Shown here in pieces: positions 17,460 to 23,700 of a DNA stretch of 64,000 nt; position 1 is the first letter of the stretch, and each line of letters starts with the position of its first letter. The notes beneath the pieces are model-generated. The model saw only the letters and a list, made by a program, of their open reading frames with translations, was not told the DNA's origin and searched no databases. The translations under genes were made by a program, and so were the position numbers. Origin of the DNA: Tessaracoccus oleiagri (GTDB lineage: Bacteria; Actinomycetota; Actinomycetes; Propionibacteriales; Propionibacteriaceae); contig NZ_FNGP01000005.1 in assembly GCF_900103275.1 (NCBI RefSeq), forward strand, positions 1 through 64,000, given 5' to 3'.

Positions 17460-17473
17460 TAGTGTTGGGCCCC

Positions 17474-18211
17474 GTGAACATCTTGGAGTTGCTGCCTGCC
17501 GTTGACGTGCAGGGCGGCCGCGCGGTGCAGCTGGTGCAGGGCGTGGCGGGTACGGAGAAGGAATTCGGTGATCCGCTGGAGGCCGCGAGGCGCTGGCAGG
17601 ACGCCGGCTCGCGCTGGATCCACCTCGTGGACCTCGACGCGGCGTTCGGCCGCGGCGACAACGCGGCCCTCCTCGCGGGCATCATCGAGCAGCTCGACGT
17701 GAACGTCGAGCTCTCCGGCGGCATCCGCGACGACGCCTCCCTCGAGCGCGCGCTCGCCACCGGCTGCCGGCGCGTGAACATCGGCACCGCGGCACTCGAG
17801 CGGCCGGAGTGGTGCGAGGAGATCCTGGCCGAGTTCGGCGACCGGATCGCCATCGGCCTCGACGTCCGCGGCGAGAACCTCGCCGCGCGCGGCTGGACCA
17901 CCGAGGGCGGCCCCTGGATGGAGACCGTCGACCGCCTCGCCTCCGCGGGCTGCGAGCGCTTCGTCGTCACCGACGTGCAGGCCGACGGCATGCTCACCGG
18001 GCCCAACATCGACCTGCTCGGCGCGGTGGCCGAGCGGTCGGGCAAGAAGGTCATCGCCTCCGGCGGGATCGCCTCCCTCGACCACCTCCGGCAGCTGCGC
18101 GAACTCGTGCCCACCGGCGTCGAGGGCGCGATCGTCGGCACCGCGCTCTACGTCGGGCGCTTCACCATCGAGGAAGCGCTGGCGGTCGCGGAAGGGCCCG
18201 GGCATGCCTAG
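17474..18211 (+). CDS. priA: PriA/HisA phosphoribosyl isomerase
   Basis: A protein of about 245 residues with a (beta/alpha)8 fold isomerising ProFAR to PRFAR in histidine synthesis. In actinobacteria lacking trpF this enzyme, PriA, also isomerises PRA in tryptophan synthesis. [18 protein letters not shown] at the N terminus holds the first catalytic Asp (11), and [19 protein letters not shown] holds the second. Similarity to the mycobacterial PriA sequence is strong throughout ([29 protein letters not shown]). GTG 17474 gives a standard N terminus; GTG 17462 is an alternative two bases after the hisH stop. The stop overlaps the next gene by eight bases. Dual activity is inferred. Confidence 0.9.
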
Positions 18212-20549
18212 GCCCCCGGCGTCCACGTTCGGCGTAGCCGAACGCGTCCACGTCCCGCCGCTGCTGGACGGCCGCCTCCGCGACCTGCTCGCGGGGAAGA
18301 AGATCGCCATGACCGGCGTGACCGGCTTCATCGGCGAGCAGATGCTCTGGGCATTCCTCAACGACTGCCCGGAGACGCGGACGGCGGTCCTCGTACGGCC
18401 CAAGGGCTCGGTCACGGCCGCCCAGCGGGTCGCCCAACTGCTGGGCAAGAAGATCTTCAAGGACCTCGTCGCGGCCGCAGGCTCGGTGGAGGCGCTGATG
18501 GCGGAGCGCGTCGAGGTCATCTCGGGCGACCTCCCCAACGTGCCCGAGCTGCCCCGCGACATCGACGTGCTCGTCCACTGCGCCGGCGACGTGTCCTTCG
18601 ACCCGCCGATCGACCAGGCCTTCATGACCAACGTCATCGGCACCAAGGCACTGCTGCAGCGTTTCCTGGAGTCCGCGTCGGACGCCGACGGCAACCTGGA
18701 GCGGATCCCGCACTACGTACACGTCTCCACCGCCTACACCGCAGGCCGACGCCGGGGGGCCATCCCGGAGGCGCCGCACGTGCACGAGGTCGACTACGAC
18801 GCGGAGGCCGCCGCGGCGCTGCGGATGGCCGAGCACGTCGAGGCCCGGTCCCGTTCCTCGGAGCAGCTCACGAAGCTGCGCAAGCAGGCGGAGGCCCTGC
18901 ACCGGCAGGCCGGCTACCTCACCACCTCGGAGGACACCGAGCGCCGCCGCCAGGAGTGGGTCAAGCAGGAGCTCGTCGCCGCCGGCACCGAGCGCGCCCG
19001 CTCGCTCGGCTGGACCGACGTGTACACCTTCGCCAAGGCGATGGGGGAGCGCGTCGTCGCCGACATGGGCAAGGACATCCGCGTCTCGGTGGTCCGCCCC
19101 GCCATCGTCGAGTCGTCGCTGCGGTACCCGCACGCCGGCTGGATCGAGGGCTTCAAGATGGCCGACCCGATCATCCTCGCCTACGGCCGCGGCCAGCTGC
19201 CGGAGTTCCCCGCGTCCCCGGACGCGGTCATCGACATCATCCCGTGCGACTTCGTGGTCAACGCGATCGTCGCGGTCTGCGCCACCGAGCCCGAGGTCGG
19301 CAGCCCCGAGTACTACCACTGCAGCTCCGGCGCCCGGAACCCGCTCACCTTCCGCGGGATCTACGAGCACGTGCGCGCGTACTTCGAGGCGCACCCCTAC
19401 ACGGAGGGCCAGGGCTCCACCGAGCTCGCCACCTGGAACTTCCCCGGCGTCGAACCCGTCGCCCGCCGCATGTGGCTCGGCGAGAAGGCCACCCAGGCGG
19501 CCGACAAGGTGCTGAGCTTCGCGCCCCGCGGCAAGCGCGTGCGCGCGATGGCGGCCGCCGTCGACCGCACCAAGAAGCAGCTCTCGTTCCTCGGCAAGTA
19601 CCTGACGCTCTACGGCGAGTACCTGCAGTCGGAGCTCCACTTCGTCGACGACAGCACGCTGGCCCTGCACAACTCGCTCCACCCGGACGACCGTGAGCGC
19701 TTCGGCTTCGACTCGGCGTCCTTCGACTGGCGGCACTACCTCGAGGAGGTGCACATCCCGGCGATCACCGACCCGGTGCGCCGCCTGGAGGCCGCGCGGA
19801 AGCGCCGCAAGAACCGCTCGGCCACGTTCCGCCCGCTGAAGCCGGCGTCCGGCAACGTGCTGGCCGCGTTCGACCTGGACGGCACCGTGATGGCCACGAA
19901 CGTCGTCGAGACGTACCTGTGGACGAAGATGCCCGAACTCTCGCCGCTCAGCCGGGTGGGGGAGATGGGGAAGCTCCTCGCCGCACTGCCCGCGTACCTG
20001 GGTGCCGAGCGTCGCGACCGCGGTGTGTTCCTCCGCTCGATCTACCGCCGCTACGCGGGCGCGGACCTGGGGGAGCTGGAGCGCTACGTCGACGAGCGCC
20101 TCGCGCCGCTCATCCTGGACCGGATGTCGCCCGACGCCATCCGCCGGATCCGCGAGCACCGCGACGCCGGGCACACGACCATCCTGATCACCGGCGTCAT
20201 CCGGCCGCTCACCCGGCCGTTCGAGGGCCTGTTCGACACCATCGTGGCGGCGGACCTCGCCGTCGACGCGGACGGCCGCTGCACGGGCTTCCTCAGCGGG
20301 CCGCCGATGGTCGGCGAGTCCCGCTCGTCGTGGCTCAAGCACTACGCGTCGCTCCACGACATCGACCTCGACCAGTCCTACGCTTACGCCGACAGCCACG
20401 TGGACCTGCCGATGCTCGGCTCCGTCGGCTACCCCGTCGCCGTGAGCCCCGACATCGGACTGATGCGCGCCGCCAAGCAACGCGGGTGGTCGATCATCGA
20501 CTGGCCCTCGATGAGCCCCATCCCTCGCTGGAAAATGCCGAAGGCGTAG
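18204..20549 (+). CDS. fatty acyl-CoA reductase (male-sterility type) fused to HAD-IB phosphatase
   Basis: A 781-residue fusion. Residues about 30-520 are an NAD(P)-binding fatty-acyl reductase of the extended-SDR, plant/animal FAR type: TGVTGFIG (37-44) binds the dinucleotide, and [10 protein letters not shown] (273-282) carries the YxxxK active site. A charged helical insert (about 205-260) and a FAR C-terminal region follow. Residues about 550-775 are an HAD-IB phosphatase: FDLDGT (556-561), LITG (661-664) and [11 protein letters not shown] (728-738). The first half should reduce fatty acyl thioesters to aldehyde or alcohol; the second should hydrolyse a phosphate ester. The ATG overlaps priA by eight bases, and a LarA-like and a PlsC-like gene follow tightly. 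Lipid synthesis is inferred; substrate and product are unknown. Confidence 0.82.
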
Positions 20550-20560
20550 AAAGGACCAAC

Positions 20561-22078
20561 ATGTCTCGTCCAGGTTTCGTGCTCGAGGTCGACGACCGCA
20601 CCCCCGCACTCCTGACGTTCTCCGGCGACCAGCTTCGCCTCAGCCGCTTCGGTCTCGGTACCAAGGTCGTCTACCCCGCGGACGCGGACGTCTCGACCAA
20701 CCCGATCCGGCTCATCGACTCCGCGCTCGAGGCGCCCGCCGGTACGGAGCCGCTCGAGCAGCGGCTGACCCCGTCGACCAAGCTCACGCTCGTCGTCCTC
20801 GACACCGATCGCCCCCGCCCACGGATGCGCTTCGACGTCCGGCGCAGCATCGTCGAGCGGGTCCTCGAACTGGCGGCCCGGGCGGGTGTGGACGACGTCG
20901 CCATCGTGGTGGGCGGCGGCCTCAACAAGCGCTGGAACCCCGTCGACATCACCCGCGTCCTGGGCGACCGCGTGGCCACGAGCTTCCAGCCCGACGGCCG
21001 GATCGAGAGCCACGACGTCACCTCCGAGGACGCCGTCGCGATCGGGGAGGTCGACGGGCACGCGATCTGCGTCAACAGGCGCGTCGCCGAGTCCGACCTC
21101 GTGGTCGCCATCGGCGCCCAGTTCGGCCACGGTGAGCCCTGCCCGCTGAGCGCCGGGATCGCCGACGTCGCGACCCTGCGCCGGCTCGGCAGCCCGGACT
21201 CCGACCGGGGATTCGCGAAGCGGGTCCACGAGACGATCCACTCGAGCCTGAACGTCTTCGCCGTGCAGGCCGTGCTGGGACAGCCCCACCTGTCGGGTGC
21301 CCTGCGTTTCGCGCACAAGCGCGAGTGGGAGTGGAAGCTCGCCGACCAGTTGGCGTTCGCCGCCGCCCGGCAGCTCGCCGCCGCCCTGCCCAGGACCGGC
21401 AGCCAGAGCCTCTACTCGACCCCCTCCGCGGACTACGCGGTGGTCGACGTCGTGGGTGGCGCCCCCGCGCAGGTCTACGACGAGGCGGCCTCCGTGTGGC
21501 AGGCGGCGAACGGCGTGGAGGTCGTCGGCCGGGCCGACGTCGTCGTCACCGGCGCCTGGGGCGGGGCCTTCGACGACGGCGACCCGGTCGGTTCGCCCAT
21601 CAACGCCGCGCACCACGCGCTGGCCCGTCGCCTGGGCAGCCACACCGGCACCCCCTTCGTCCGCGACGGCGGCGTCGCCATCGCGTTCCATCCGCTGGCG
21701 CCCAGGTTCTCCAACCGCCGCCAGTCGTCCGCCGCCGACTTCTTCGCGAAGATCCTCCCCGAGACCGTGGACCCGGCCGGGATGGCCGACTTCGAGGAGC
21801 GTGCCTGCTCCGACGAGTGGTACGTCGACCTCTACCGCAAGCAGTTCGCCGACCATCCGCTGCGGACGTTCCAGACGTGGTACCGCGTCGCCGAGGCCAC
21901 CCGTTCGCTCAGCGACGTGATCTGGGTGGGCGGCAACCGCCGGACGGCGGACCTGTTCGGGCACCGATCGGCCAGCACCTACGCCGACGCGCTCGAGATC
22001 GCGTCGAACACCGTGGGCCGCGAGCCGTCGATCACGTACCTGCATGGCCCCGGCCTGCCGCTGGGTGACGTGCGATGA
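20561..22078 (+). CDS. LarA-like (DUF2088) domain protein
   Basis: A 505-residue protein whose N-terminal half resembles nickel-pincer lactate racemase (LarA/DUF2088): DTDRPRPRMR (81-90), a glycine-rich GGGLNKRW (118-125), SHDV (150-153) and DLVVAIGAQFGHG (179-191). Where LarA has the lysine tethering the nickel-pincer nucleotide, just before a Pro-Gly-Ile, this protein reads GEPCPLSAGI (191-200), with Cys194 at the equivalent place and no lysine between 177 and 215. Canonical lactate racemase activity is therefore doubtful. The ATG at 20561 has AAAGGA six bases upstream. It lies 11 bases after the reductase gene and overlaps the PlsC-like gene by four. It may be a structural or divergent enzyme of the same lipid pathway. 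Confidence 0.68.
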   Translation: MSRPGFVLEVDDRTPALLTFSGDQLRLSRFGLGTKVVYPADADVSTNPIRLIDSALEAPAGTEPLEQRLTPSTKLTLVVLDTDRPRPRMRFDVRRSIVERVLELAARAGVDDVAIVVGGGLNKRWNPVDITRVLGDRVATSFQPDGRIESHDVTSEDAVAIGEVDGHAICVNRRVAESDLVVAIGAQFGHGEPCPLSAGIADVATLRRLGSPDSDRGFAKRVHETIHSSLNVFAVQAVLGQPHLSGALRFAHKREWEWKLADQLAFAAARQLAAALPRTGSQSLYSTPSADYAVVDVVGGAPAQVYDEAASVWQAANGVEVVGRADVVVTGAWGGAFDDGDPVGSPINAAHHALARRLGSHTGTPFVRDGGVAIAFHPLAPRFSNRRQSSAADFFAKILPETVDPAGMADFEERACSDEWYVDLYRKQFADHPLRTFQTWYRVAEATRSLSDVIWVGGNRRTADLFGHRSASTYADALEIASNTVGREPSITYLHGPGLPLGDVR

Positions 22079-22860
22079 GCAGGTCACTCAAGAGCTGGGC
22101 GCAGGACGACCGTCGCCGCCCACGGCCCCGCTTCACGCTGGCCGCGGACCTGCTCGCCCTCTGGACCGCGCCCCGGGTGCGCCCGGCCGGGGCACCGCCC
22201 AAGGTGGAGCGCCCGTCGCGCCGGCTCGGCTGGCAGCAGCTCGGCGCGCTGAACCTCTCCGGCCTGTTCGCCCCCAGGGTGGAACTCGAGGTCGTCGGGC
22301 GCGACGCGCTCATCGGCCTCGAGACGCCGTTCATCTTCGCCGTGAACGAGGCCGGTCGGCTCGACCACCAGCTGCTCCACATGGCGCTGCCGAGGCGGCT
22401 GCGGCCGAACTCGCTGTCGCTCAGCAAGTCGCTGGCCAAGGGGCGCAACGTGGTGACCTTCGCCGACGAGCCTCGCGGCGGCCGGCTGGTGGGGGAGTTC
22501 ACGACGGTGGCCGCCGAGCTCGCCGCCCAGCACTCCGTGGCGATCGTGCCCGTCGGCATCGTCGGCGGTTACCGCCTGACCGACACCCTGAAGCTGCGGC
22601 TGAACCGCAGGCCCAAGGTGTCCGTGCGGTTCGGCGCGCCGATCTACGTCCGCACCCTCGGCATCGACGAGGTGACCCAGGAGATCCAGGCCCGCGTCGA
22701 GTTCCTCGTCGGCGAGGGCGAGCTGTCGTGGTGGGAGGTCGAGCGGCGACGCCTCGGGGCGCCCGACGTCGTGCCGGCCTCCATGCCGCGCTGGCGCAGG
22801 CTCTGGGAGCAGGCCGCGCCGCGCCCCGCCGCGGGCGGGCGGCGCCGCATCTGGCGTTGA
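22075..22860 (+). CDS. PlsC-like acyltransferase with altered HX4D motif
   Basis: A 261-residue protein with the PlsC/AGPAT fold: a basic N terminus, a hydrophobic strand FIFAVNEAGRLDHQ (86-99), VVTFADEPRGG (126-136) at the FPEGTR position, and IVPVGIVGGYR (157-167) at motif IV. In acyl-glycerol-phosphate acyltransferases motif I is HX4D. Here the histidine position is Glu92 (E-AGRL-D97), so standard catalysis is questionable. It overlaps the LarA-like gene by four bases and ends 69 bases before yebC. It may be an inactive partner, use another base, or act on an unusual acceptor. The fold call is moderate. Confidence 0.68.
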   Translation: MSRSLKSWAQDDRRRPRPRFTLAADLLALWTAPRVRPAGAPPKVERPSRRLGWQQLGALNLSGLFAPRVELEVVGRDALIGLETPFIFAVNEAGRLDHQLLHMALPRRLRPNSLSLSKSLAKGRNVVTFADEPRGGRLVGEFTTVAAELAAQHSVAIVPVGIVGGYRLTDTLKLRLNRRPKVSVRFGAPIYVRTLGIDEVTQEIQARVEFLVGEGELSWWEVERRRLGAPDVVPASMPRWRRLWEQAAPRPAAGGRRRIWR

Positions 22861-22929
22861 TGCCGGGGAATCCCGCGCGGCAGGGGTAGGCTTTGTGCGT
22901 TCGTACCAAGCACAGATCGAAAGGTCGCC

Positions 22930-23700
22930 ATGTCGGGGCACTCCAAATGGGCAACCACCAAGCACAAGAAGGCCGCACTCGATGCGAAGCGGGGCAAGCT
23001 GTTCGCCAAGCTCGTGAAGAACATCGAGGTCGCGGCCCGCATTGGCGGCGGTGACCCCGGCGGGAACCCGACGCTGTACGACGCGATCCAGAAGGCCAAG
23101 AAGTCCTCGGTCCCGAACGACAACATCGATCGTGCCGTCAAGCGCGGCTCGGGGGCTGAGGGCGGCGGCGCCGACTACGAGACCATCATGTACGAGGCGT
23201 ACGGCCCGGCCGGCGTGGCCATGCTCATCGAGTGCCTCACCGACAACCGCAACCGTTCCGCCTCCGAGGTGCGCGTGGCCGTCACCCGCAACGGCGGCAC
23301 CATGGCCGACGTCGGCTCGGTGCAGCGCATGTTCTCCCGCAAGGGCGTCGTCGCGCTGCCCAAGCAGCAGGGCGGCCGCACCCTCTCCGAGGACGACGTG
23401 ATGGAAGCCGCGCTGGAGGCCGGCCTCGAGGAGGTCGCCGACGCGGGTGATCAGTGGGAGGCCATCAGCGACCCCAACGACGTCGTGGAGGTCCGCAAGG
23501 CCGTCGAGGCGGCCGGGTTCGAGTACGACTCCGCCGAGGTCCAGTTCGTGTCCTCCTTCGACTCTCCCGTGGACAGCGCCGAGACCGCGCGCAAGGTGTT
23601 CAACATCATCGACGCGCTGGAGGACTCGGACGACGTGCAGAACGTCTACACGAACCTCGATCTGACCCCCGAGGTCGAGGCCGCGCTGGCCGAGGACTGA
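22930..23700 (+). CDS. yebC: YebC/PmpR family protein
   Basis: A 256-residue member of the YebC/TACO1 family, associated with translation of difficult (for example proline-rich) sequences and, in some bacteria, transcriptional control. The family opening [20 protein letters not shown], then [36 protein letters not shown] and a C-terminal acidic tail are typical. It precedes ruvC by 11 bases, as in many actinobacteria. The 69 bases upstream probably hold the promoter for yebC-ruvCAB. Confidence 0.93.

Follow-up and report, generated by a model that had tools for sequence, protein, structure and literature searches.

What would a LarA-like protein and a PlsC-like protein contribute beside a fatty-acyl reductase (FAR) when neither retains the residues of its active site? 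The question is posed by a 64,000-nucleotide stretch of the Tessaracoccus oleiagri genome (Propionibacteriaceae; contig NZ_FNGP01000005.1, positions 1 to 64,000), called the window here, in which a gene for a FAR fused to an HAD phosphatase is followed by a LarA-like gene and a PlsC-derived gene. We propose, with a probability of roughly 0.6, that this trio is a FAR-HAD enzyme kept together with two pseudoenzyme partners, and that it has been reduced from a four-gene lipid unit.

The case begins with the LarA-like protein, which has the LarA fold (PF09861, Lar_N, 58.8 bits; cut-off 23.3) and matches the LarAH_14_15_16 family, NF052592, over residues 6-505, although at 338.5 bits it falls under that family's cut-off of 740. 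Three LarA proteins from intact units score 912-934 bits against the same profile, and six altered ones 266-625. Of the residues equivalent to Lys184, His200 and His108 of L. plantarum LarA, the lysine that covalently binds the nickel-pincer nucleotide (NPN) cofactor, Lys195 in LarA_Sp, is Cys194 in the window by alignment, the nickel-ligand histidine is Gly210 and the catalytic histidine is Asn122; the His108 column was set by the alignment itself, and the nickel-ligand column was placed at intact-unit position 216 (Lys+16) from the Lys-His spacing of LarA_Sp. The fetched units gave 110 LarA rows, partial pieces excluded, which represent 96 distinct sequences. The NPN lysine is present in 44/44 intact and 0/52 altered proteins, a split made by that lysine itself, so that only the two histidine counts are independent of it: the catalytic histidine stands in 44/44 against 3/52, and the nickel-ligand histidine in 44/44 against 6/52. 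All three residues are gone from 44 of the 52 altered proteins, and the lysine column holds 13 different residues across them. The altered set comprises 50 Propionibacteriaceae-type sequences, including that of the window, and one each from genomes G038 and G088.

This loss is regional. Intact LarA has 251 invariant columns, and at 102 of them the residue is shared by at least 80% of the altered proteins. Within columns 201-250 this holds for only 1 of 25, and outside that stretch for 101 of 226 (Fisher p 2.3e-5), while at columns 476-500 the figure is 12 of 13. An N-terminal RPGF (residues 3-6; window 20,567-20,578) is invariant in both intact and altered LarA of the unit and is a possible interaction site. 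Shared operon, gene order and sequence point to descent of the altered LarA from the intact type. Where an earlier note on this DNA had treated the LarA-like protein as an unexplained extra component, it is an ancestral member of the unit whose cofactor site has been lost. In Desguin et al. 2020 (PMC7583248), groups 12, 13 and 16 are set aside as not conserving NPN and catalytic residues, and as described there they resemble the altered type found here; the same paper reports that LarAH14 of Frankia sp., purified and given NPN, had none of seven tabulated activities. The best-scoring sequence matches in the PDB, for the window protein and for one intact protein, are the single-His LarA_Bw and LarA_Sp (9q2u, 9q3k, 9q3j). 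According to PMC12611868, LarA_Sp keeps Lys195 and His211, neither of which has a counterpart in the window protein, and both enzymes are tied to carbohydrate genes rather than to FAR or PlsC.

The PlsC-derived protein has no Pfam or NCBIfam match at E ≤ 1, PF01553 included, and its relationship emerges by way of those PlsC proteins of the unit that bear the motifs: when the profile of its close group is compared with that of motif-keeping PlsC, the probability is 99.9 (E 1e-31), and 22 of 37 aligned homologues match PF01553 at E ≤ 0.01. Homology to the PlsC/AGPAT family (PF01553; PDB 5kym) therefore stands, and with it the "PlsC-fold" label that the protein had been given, but acylation is not supported, since the His-Asp and Glu-Gly-Thr-Arg motifs are gone. 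Motif I reads NEAGRLD in place of NHxxxxD and motif III reads FADEPRGG in place of FPEGTRS, and a stretch of roughly 35-40 residues between them is missing in the window's clade; a C-terminal tail with invariant tryptophans, common to the motif-bearing PlsC of the unit, is retained. Among named sequences longer than 225 residues, both motifs occur in 27/27 from outside the family versus 6/40 of Propionibacteriaceae type, the other family-type proteins having a motif-I-like match only (four) or neither motif (30); loci L295, L302 and L310 gave no usable open reading frame (ORF). The genome samples agree, with motif I in 19/19 sequences of the class from outside the family and both motifs, besides the window, in 1 of 15 family rows (G188).

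The FAR-HAD protein keeps its motifs. Its FAR part matches PF07993 (156.5 bits) and, weakly, PF03015 (34.5 bits; cut-off 35.4), with the fatty acyl-CoA reductase 7eoz as best PDB match over 500 residues (26-525), and its HAD part matches PF12710 and, above the family cut-off of 98.3, the HAD-IB family TIGR01490 (101.1 bits), with the DxDGT motif, read as DLDGT in the window, and the DSxxD motif both found. The Rossmann TGxxGFxG, the YxxxK and the DxDGT motifs are all intact. The two FAR motifs occur in 56/56 surveyed tree sequences, and HAD DxDG[TA] in 55/56, the alanine variant belonging to two outgroup rows. By homology we predict that FAR-HAD reduces an acyl thioester and dephosphorylates a lipid-like substrate. 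What distinguishes it from these known families is the fusion of both in one chain: the actinobacterial HAD fusions described in PMC10351704 are AGPAT-HAD, unlike the FAR-HAD seen here, and it is the HAD domains in fusions with AGPAT that are suggested there to act as lipid phosphatases in bacteria. A second FAR-HAD type (L158, which is genome G019, and L229-L231), about 40-45% identical, has no LarA match and no adjoining his genes in the fetched stretches.

Relatives show a fuller form of the unit. We used a class sample of 148 genomes and a family sample of 57, both including the window's genome. LarA-like proteins occur in 25 genomes of the class sample, all 25 with FAR, which is full length in 24 and partial in G140, and in 24 of the family sample, again all with FAR, though some FAR matches are partial at contig ends; every genome with a LarA-like gene thus also has FAR, as the earlier note's reading of the genes as a unit would have it. 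FAR itself is found in 34 family genomes (E ≤ 1e-50), of which G158, G171 and G181 carry a separate type of 42-45%. Outside the family, 19/19 class loci have the order FAR-ADH-LarA-PlsC, where ADH is a zinc alcohol dehydrogenase of the zinc-binding dehydrogenase type (PF08240, PF00107; one member tested); the 11-15 kb retrieved for each showed no his gene. A twentieth class locus, in G019, encodes a FAR of the other type and has neither ADH nor LarA. The four-gene order also occurs in Nocardioides, and in 20/20 Kribbella and 3/3 Actinopolymorpha loci the four genes lie downstream of hisA, though in A. alba more than 2 kb of other sequence intervenes. A second hisA-like protein, inferred to be HisF, follows the unit in 19/20 Kribbella loci (the one tested matches PF00977). 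Because hisA precedes the unit in these genera, linkage to his genes probably predates the Propionibacteriaceae. Some units are cut by contig ends and several metagenome-assembled genomes (MAGs) are incomplete.

ADH separates the two forms. It is present in 29/30 named loci from outside the family and was found in 8/8 intact-unit genomes, while 20/20 family genomes searched have no match at E ≤ 1e-20, which also rules out its relocation within those genomes. The single family-type named locus (of 50) that retains it between FAR and LarA is a MAG, L261, whose LarA has already lost the lysine. Five f15 units (L142-L146) have a gene of the aldehyde dehydrogenase family nearby, and three Nocardioides units (L311, L313, L314) have one of the acyl-CoA-ligase family, one member of each having been tested with Pfam; these neighbours hint at fatty-acid or aldehyde chemistry in the intact unit.

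The presence of larC differs with the state of LarA. Counting distinct genomes, with the 13 common to both searches counted once and with class genomes G098, G109, G122, G130 and G140 and ten named loci (some of them genomes of the samples) left out, larC (PF01969) is present in 27/28 genomes with intact LarA, the exception being L309, a MAG of 2.5 Mb, versus 19/49 with altered LarA (Fisher p 1.8e-7, a value that ignores kinship). Among the 30 altered-LarA genomes without larC, 25 have a single Lar_N match, and one or more further Lar_N matches are present in 18 of the 19 that have larC, the exception being G223, a MAG of 2.3 Mb. The window's genome belongs to the latter kind. Outside the window, on contig C1 at about 904-915 kb (L232, 6241-16868), it encodes another LarA, in which GGNK stands where the NPN lysine is expected, and larB, larC and larE lie about 6-8 kb from it among sugar-acid-like genes (larC identified by its family match, the other names assigned by reading the ORFs). 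This arrangement indicates that NPN in this genome has another customer.

The FAR tree suggests an order for these losses. The Propionibacteriaceae form one clade (100/100, 42 rows) in which no LarA-like protein has the lysine, the PlsC motifs are kept in a subgroup (L261, L266, L268, L270, L272) and ADH occurs in L261 only. The simplest order of loss is that of the LarA site, then ADH, then the PlsC motifs. Genomes G038 (L150) and G088 (L153), which have lost the LarA lysine and have no larC found but keep ADH and the PlsC motifs, group on the same tree with the intact-LarA genome G100, far from the Propionibacteriaceae, and hence represent an independent case of LarA loss.

We hypothesize the following history from these comparisons. 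The ancestral unit would have consisted of FAR-HAD, the zinc ADH, an NPN-dependent LarA homologue of groups 14-16 and PlsC, and would have stood beside hisA before the Propionibacteriaceae arose. In the lineage of the window, the sequences show that LarA has lost its NPN and catalytic residues, that ADH is gone and that PlsC has lost its acyltransferase motifs, with those of FAR and HAD being kept. FAR-HAD may still reduce an acyl thioester and remove phosphate from a lipid-like substrate, and the two altered proteins would hold, stabilise, regulate or feed it, carrying out neither racemisation nor acylation. The retention of the altered genes, their dN/dS (ratio of nonsynonymous to synonymous change), their dependence on FAR and their lost active sites make non-catalytic partners the most likely role.

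A different account of the same facts sees the LarA-like and PlsC-like genes as remnants in decay, under relaxed selection and about to be lost, with FAR-HAD the sole functional part, and we consider it unlikely. By simple counting over 11 chosen pairs, both altered genes do evolve faster than FAR in most pairs, with dN/dS of 0.08-0.24 for FAR, 0.12-0.41 for the LarA-like and 0.14-0.88 for the PlsC-like genes (one PlsC pair having only 66 codons), and of 0.14, 0.26 and 0.38 respectively between the window and L235. The remnant account also gains from genomes in which the genes are missing: seven family genomes (G151, G165, G167, G175, G184, G189, G202) have an orthologous FAR flanked by hisA and yebC and neither altered gene at E ≤ 1e-4, loci L249, L255 (the G189 genome) and L279 have neither, and the Raineyella-type genomes (G169; G191, which is L278) have the LarA-like gene with no PlsC shown. 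Yet dN/dS lies well below 1 in most pairs, and by this measure the altered proteins look constrained, less so than FAR, and the PlsC-like protein least. Nor does any of the family sample's 25 LarA-like matches, three of which are short pieces at contig ends, contain an internal stop. The 4-base overlap of the LarA-like stop with the start of the next gene in the window and the conserved columns of LarA described above, RPGF and the stretch at 476-500 among them, also speak against decay. Several of our own results nevertheless weigh against the pseudoenzyme-partner reading. FAR is kept alone in the seven genomes just named. Two of the 11 pairs have a PlsC-like dN/dS as high as 0.78 and 0.88, so that selection on this gene may have been partly relaxed, and all the ratios come from so simple a method, applied to chosen pairs in a genome of 70% GC. 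A histidine at one or both active-site columns is retained in 8 of the 52 altered LarA proteins, and five genomes without larC (G153, G177, G193, G204, G218) have more than one Lar_N match, which is unexplained, though some may be incomplete. The NPN genes of the window's own genome sit beside another LarA. An Arachnia propionica MAG (L254, 10001-12262) has a FAR-HAD with DLNGT as its HAD nucleophile motif, the sole exception of the 56. Finally, ADH-bearing L261 is nested among members without ADH, and parsimony requires three changes, of which one probably falls outside the family, at L310; the history of ADH is one of several losses or one regain, which weakens the simple order of loss.

Could the altered proteins instead have gained a new catalysis, independent of NPN and acyltransferase chemistry, with a product different from the ancestral one? 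Their long-term retention would fit, as would residues uniform in the altered group, among them Gly120 (alanine in intact proteins) and His151 (65/65 altered rows, 16/45 intact rows). We hold this to be very unlikely: the old active-site columns have not been re-conserved, as the variety of residues at the lysine column shows, and His151 is also found in two aligned relatives of solved structure and is hence not new. More doubtful still is the proposal first made for this locus, that the trio reduces, dephosphorylates and acylates to yield a fatty-alcohol or ether-type lipid. A lipid role as such survives, being compatible with the FAR fold, and intact FAR and HAD motifs and the genes near ancestral-type units that hint at fatty acids speak for the proposal; acylation by the PlsC protein and an ElbD-like architecture are not supported. 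Against the proposal, the PlsC motifs are absent in the window and ADH is not found. No WS/DGAT wax-ester synthase has a match in the window's genome either, which rejects the wax-ester route for this organism only, as 14 of 19 other family genomes searched do have WS/DGAT. To name an ether lipid or a fatty alcohol as what the unit makes would be a guess. ElbD, the myxobacterial enzyme invoked as an analogue, is encoded in the elb operon of Myxococcus xanthus and, as described in PMC9131029, joins FAR-like, ACS, ACP and AGPAT-like domains in one chain beside a separate HAD gene. FAR-like and AGPAT-like domains thus meet an HAD protein in both systems, but the window has a FAR-HAD fusion with separate genes, its AGPAT homologue is degenerate, and no LarA is among the elb genes described there. 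None of the three window proteins contains an ACS or ACP domain by Pfam and NCBIfam, and membership of the ElbD type is rejected.

The layout of the locus is as it had been described: the ORF coordinates, the overlap with hisA/priA, the 11-base gap behind the FAR gene and the 4-base ATGA overlap that follows are exact, all three genes lie on the forward strand, and both the trio and its his linkage are real and kept in relatives.

Coordinates of the trio and its immediate neighbours in the window
Feature	Position	Strand	Remarks
hisA/priA	17462..18211	+	upstream neighbour; 8-base overlap with FAR gene
FAR-HAD fusion	18204..20549	+	781 aa; FAR fold at residues ~26-525, HAD-IB at ~553-750
LarA-like gene	20561..22078	+	505 aa; Lys, Ni-ligand His, catalytic His and part of active-site segment lost
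PlsC-derived gene	22075..22860	+	261 aa; motifs I and III and ~35-40 intervening residues lost
yebC	22930..23700	+	downstream neighbour

The Propionibacteriaceae order is hisA-FAR-LarA-PlsC, often followed by a GNAT gene, and then yebC-ruvC. Of the 50 Propionibacteriaceae-type named loci, 49 have hisA as the first recognised gene 5' of FAR; in the remaining one (L308) the contig begins within FAR. Conservation of gene order across dozens of loci rules out a chance neighbourhood. The GNAT gene lies between the PlsC-like gene and yebC in many relatives, and none is seen in the window (22861-22929) or in L235, L236 and L277. By its named relatives the window's genome falls in the Propionibacteriaceae, near Arachnia/Tessaracoccus. 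The closest named FAR relative belongs to a Propionibacterium sp. MAG (L235; 89%), followed by Propionibacteriaceae bacterium P6A17 and Tessaracoccus caeni. The window's genome comprises 3.16 Mb in 11 contigs. No Rfam match at gathering level occurs in the window, which rejects a known RNA element, and a promoter and terminator scan was at the level of shuffled sequence (0 promoter-like elements with 0.2 expected; 2 terminator-like with 1.8 expected).

Tentatively, we see in this locus a conserved NPN-free LarA pseudoenzyme of a bacterial family, accompanied in many sampled members by an acyltransferase pseudoenzyme, both serving as partners of a fatty-acyl reductase/phosphatase in an operon whose enzymes turned non-catalytic stepwise while remaining linked, with a parallel loss of the LarA active site in two other actinobacterial genomes. 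Searches of the literature on FAR with HAD or DUF2088, on LarA pseudoenzymes and on FAR-HAD fusions returned no recognised description of such a unit, although the supplementary context table of Desguin et al. 2020 may already link LarAH14 to these genes. LarA groups 14-16 gain a consistent lipid-gene context, and the results suggest that homologues set aside for missing NPN residues descend from true NPN proteins. Annotation of the LarA-like gene as a nickel-dependent isomerase and of the PlsC-like gene as an acyltransferase should be avoided. The loci together form a natural series, running from the intact unit through units with LarA altered and with ADH and PlsC motifs present, then LarA altered and ADH gone with PlsC motifs kept, then both proteins altered, to FAR alone, and this series would be useful for studying how enzymes become non-catalytic partners.

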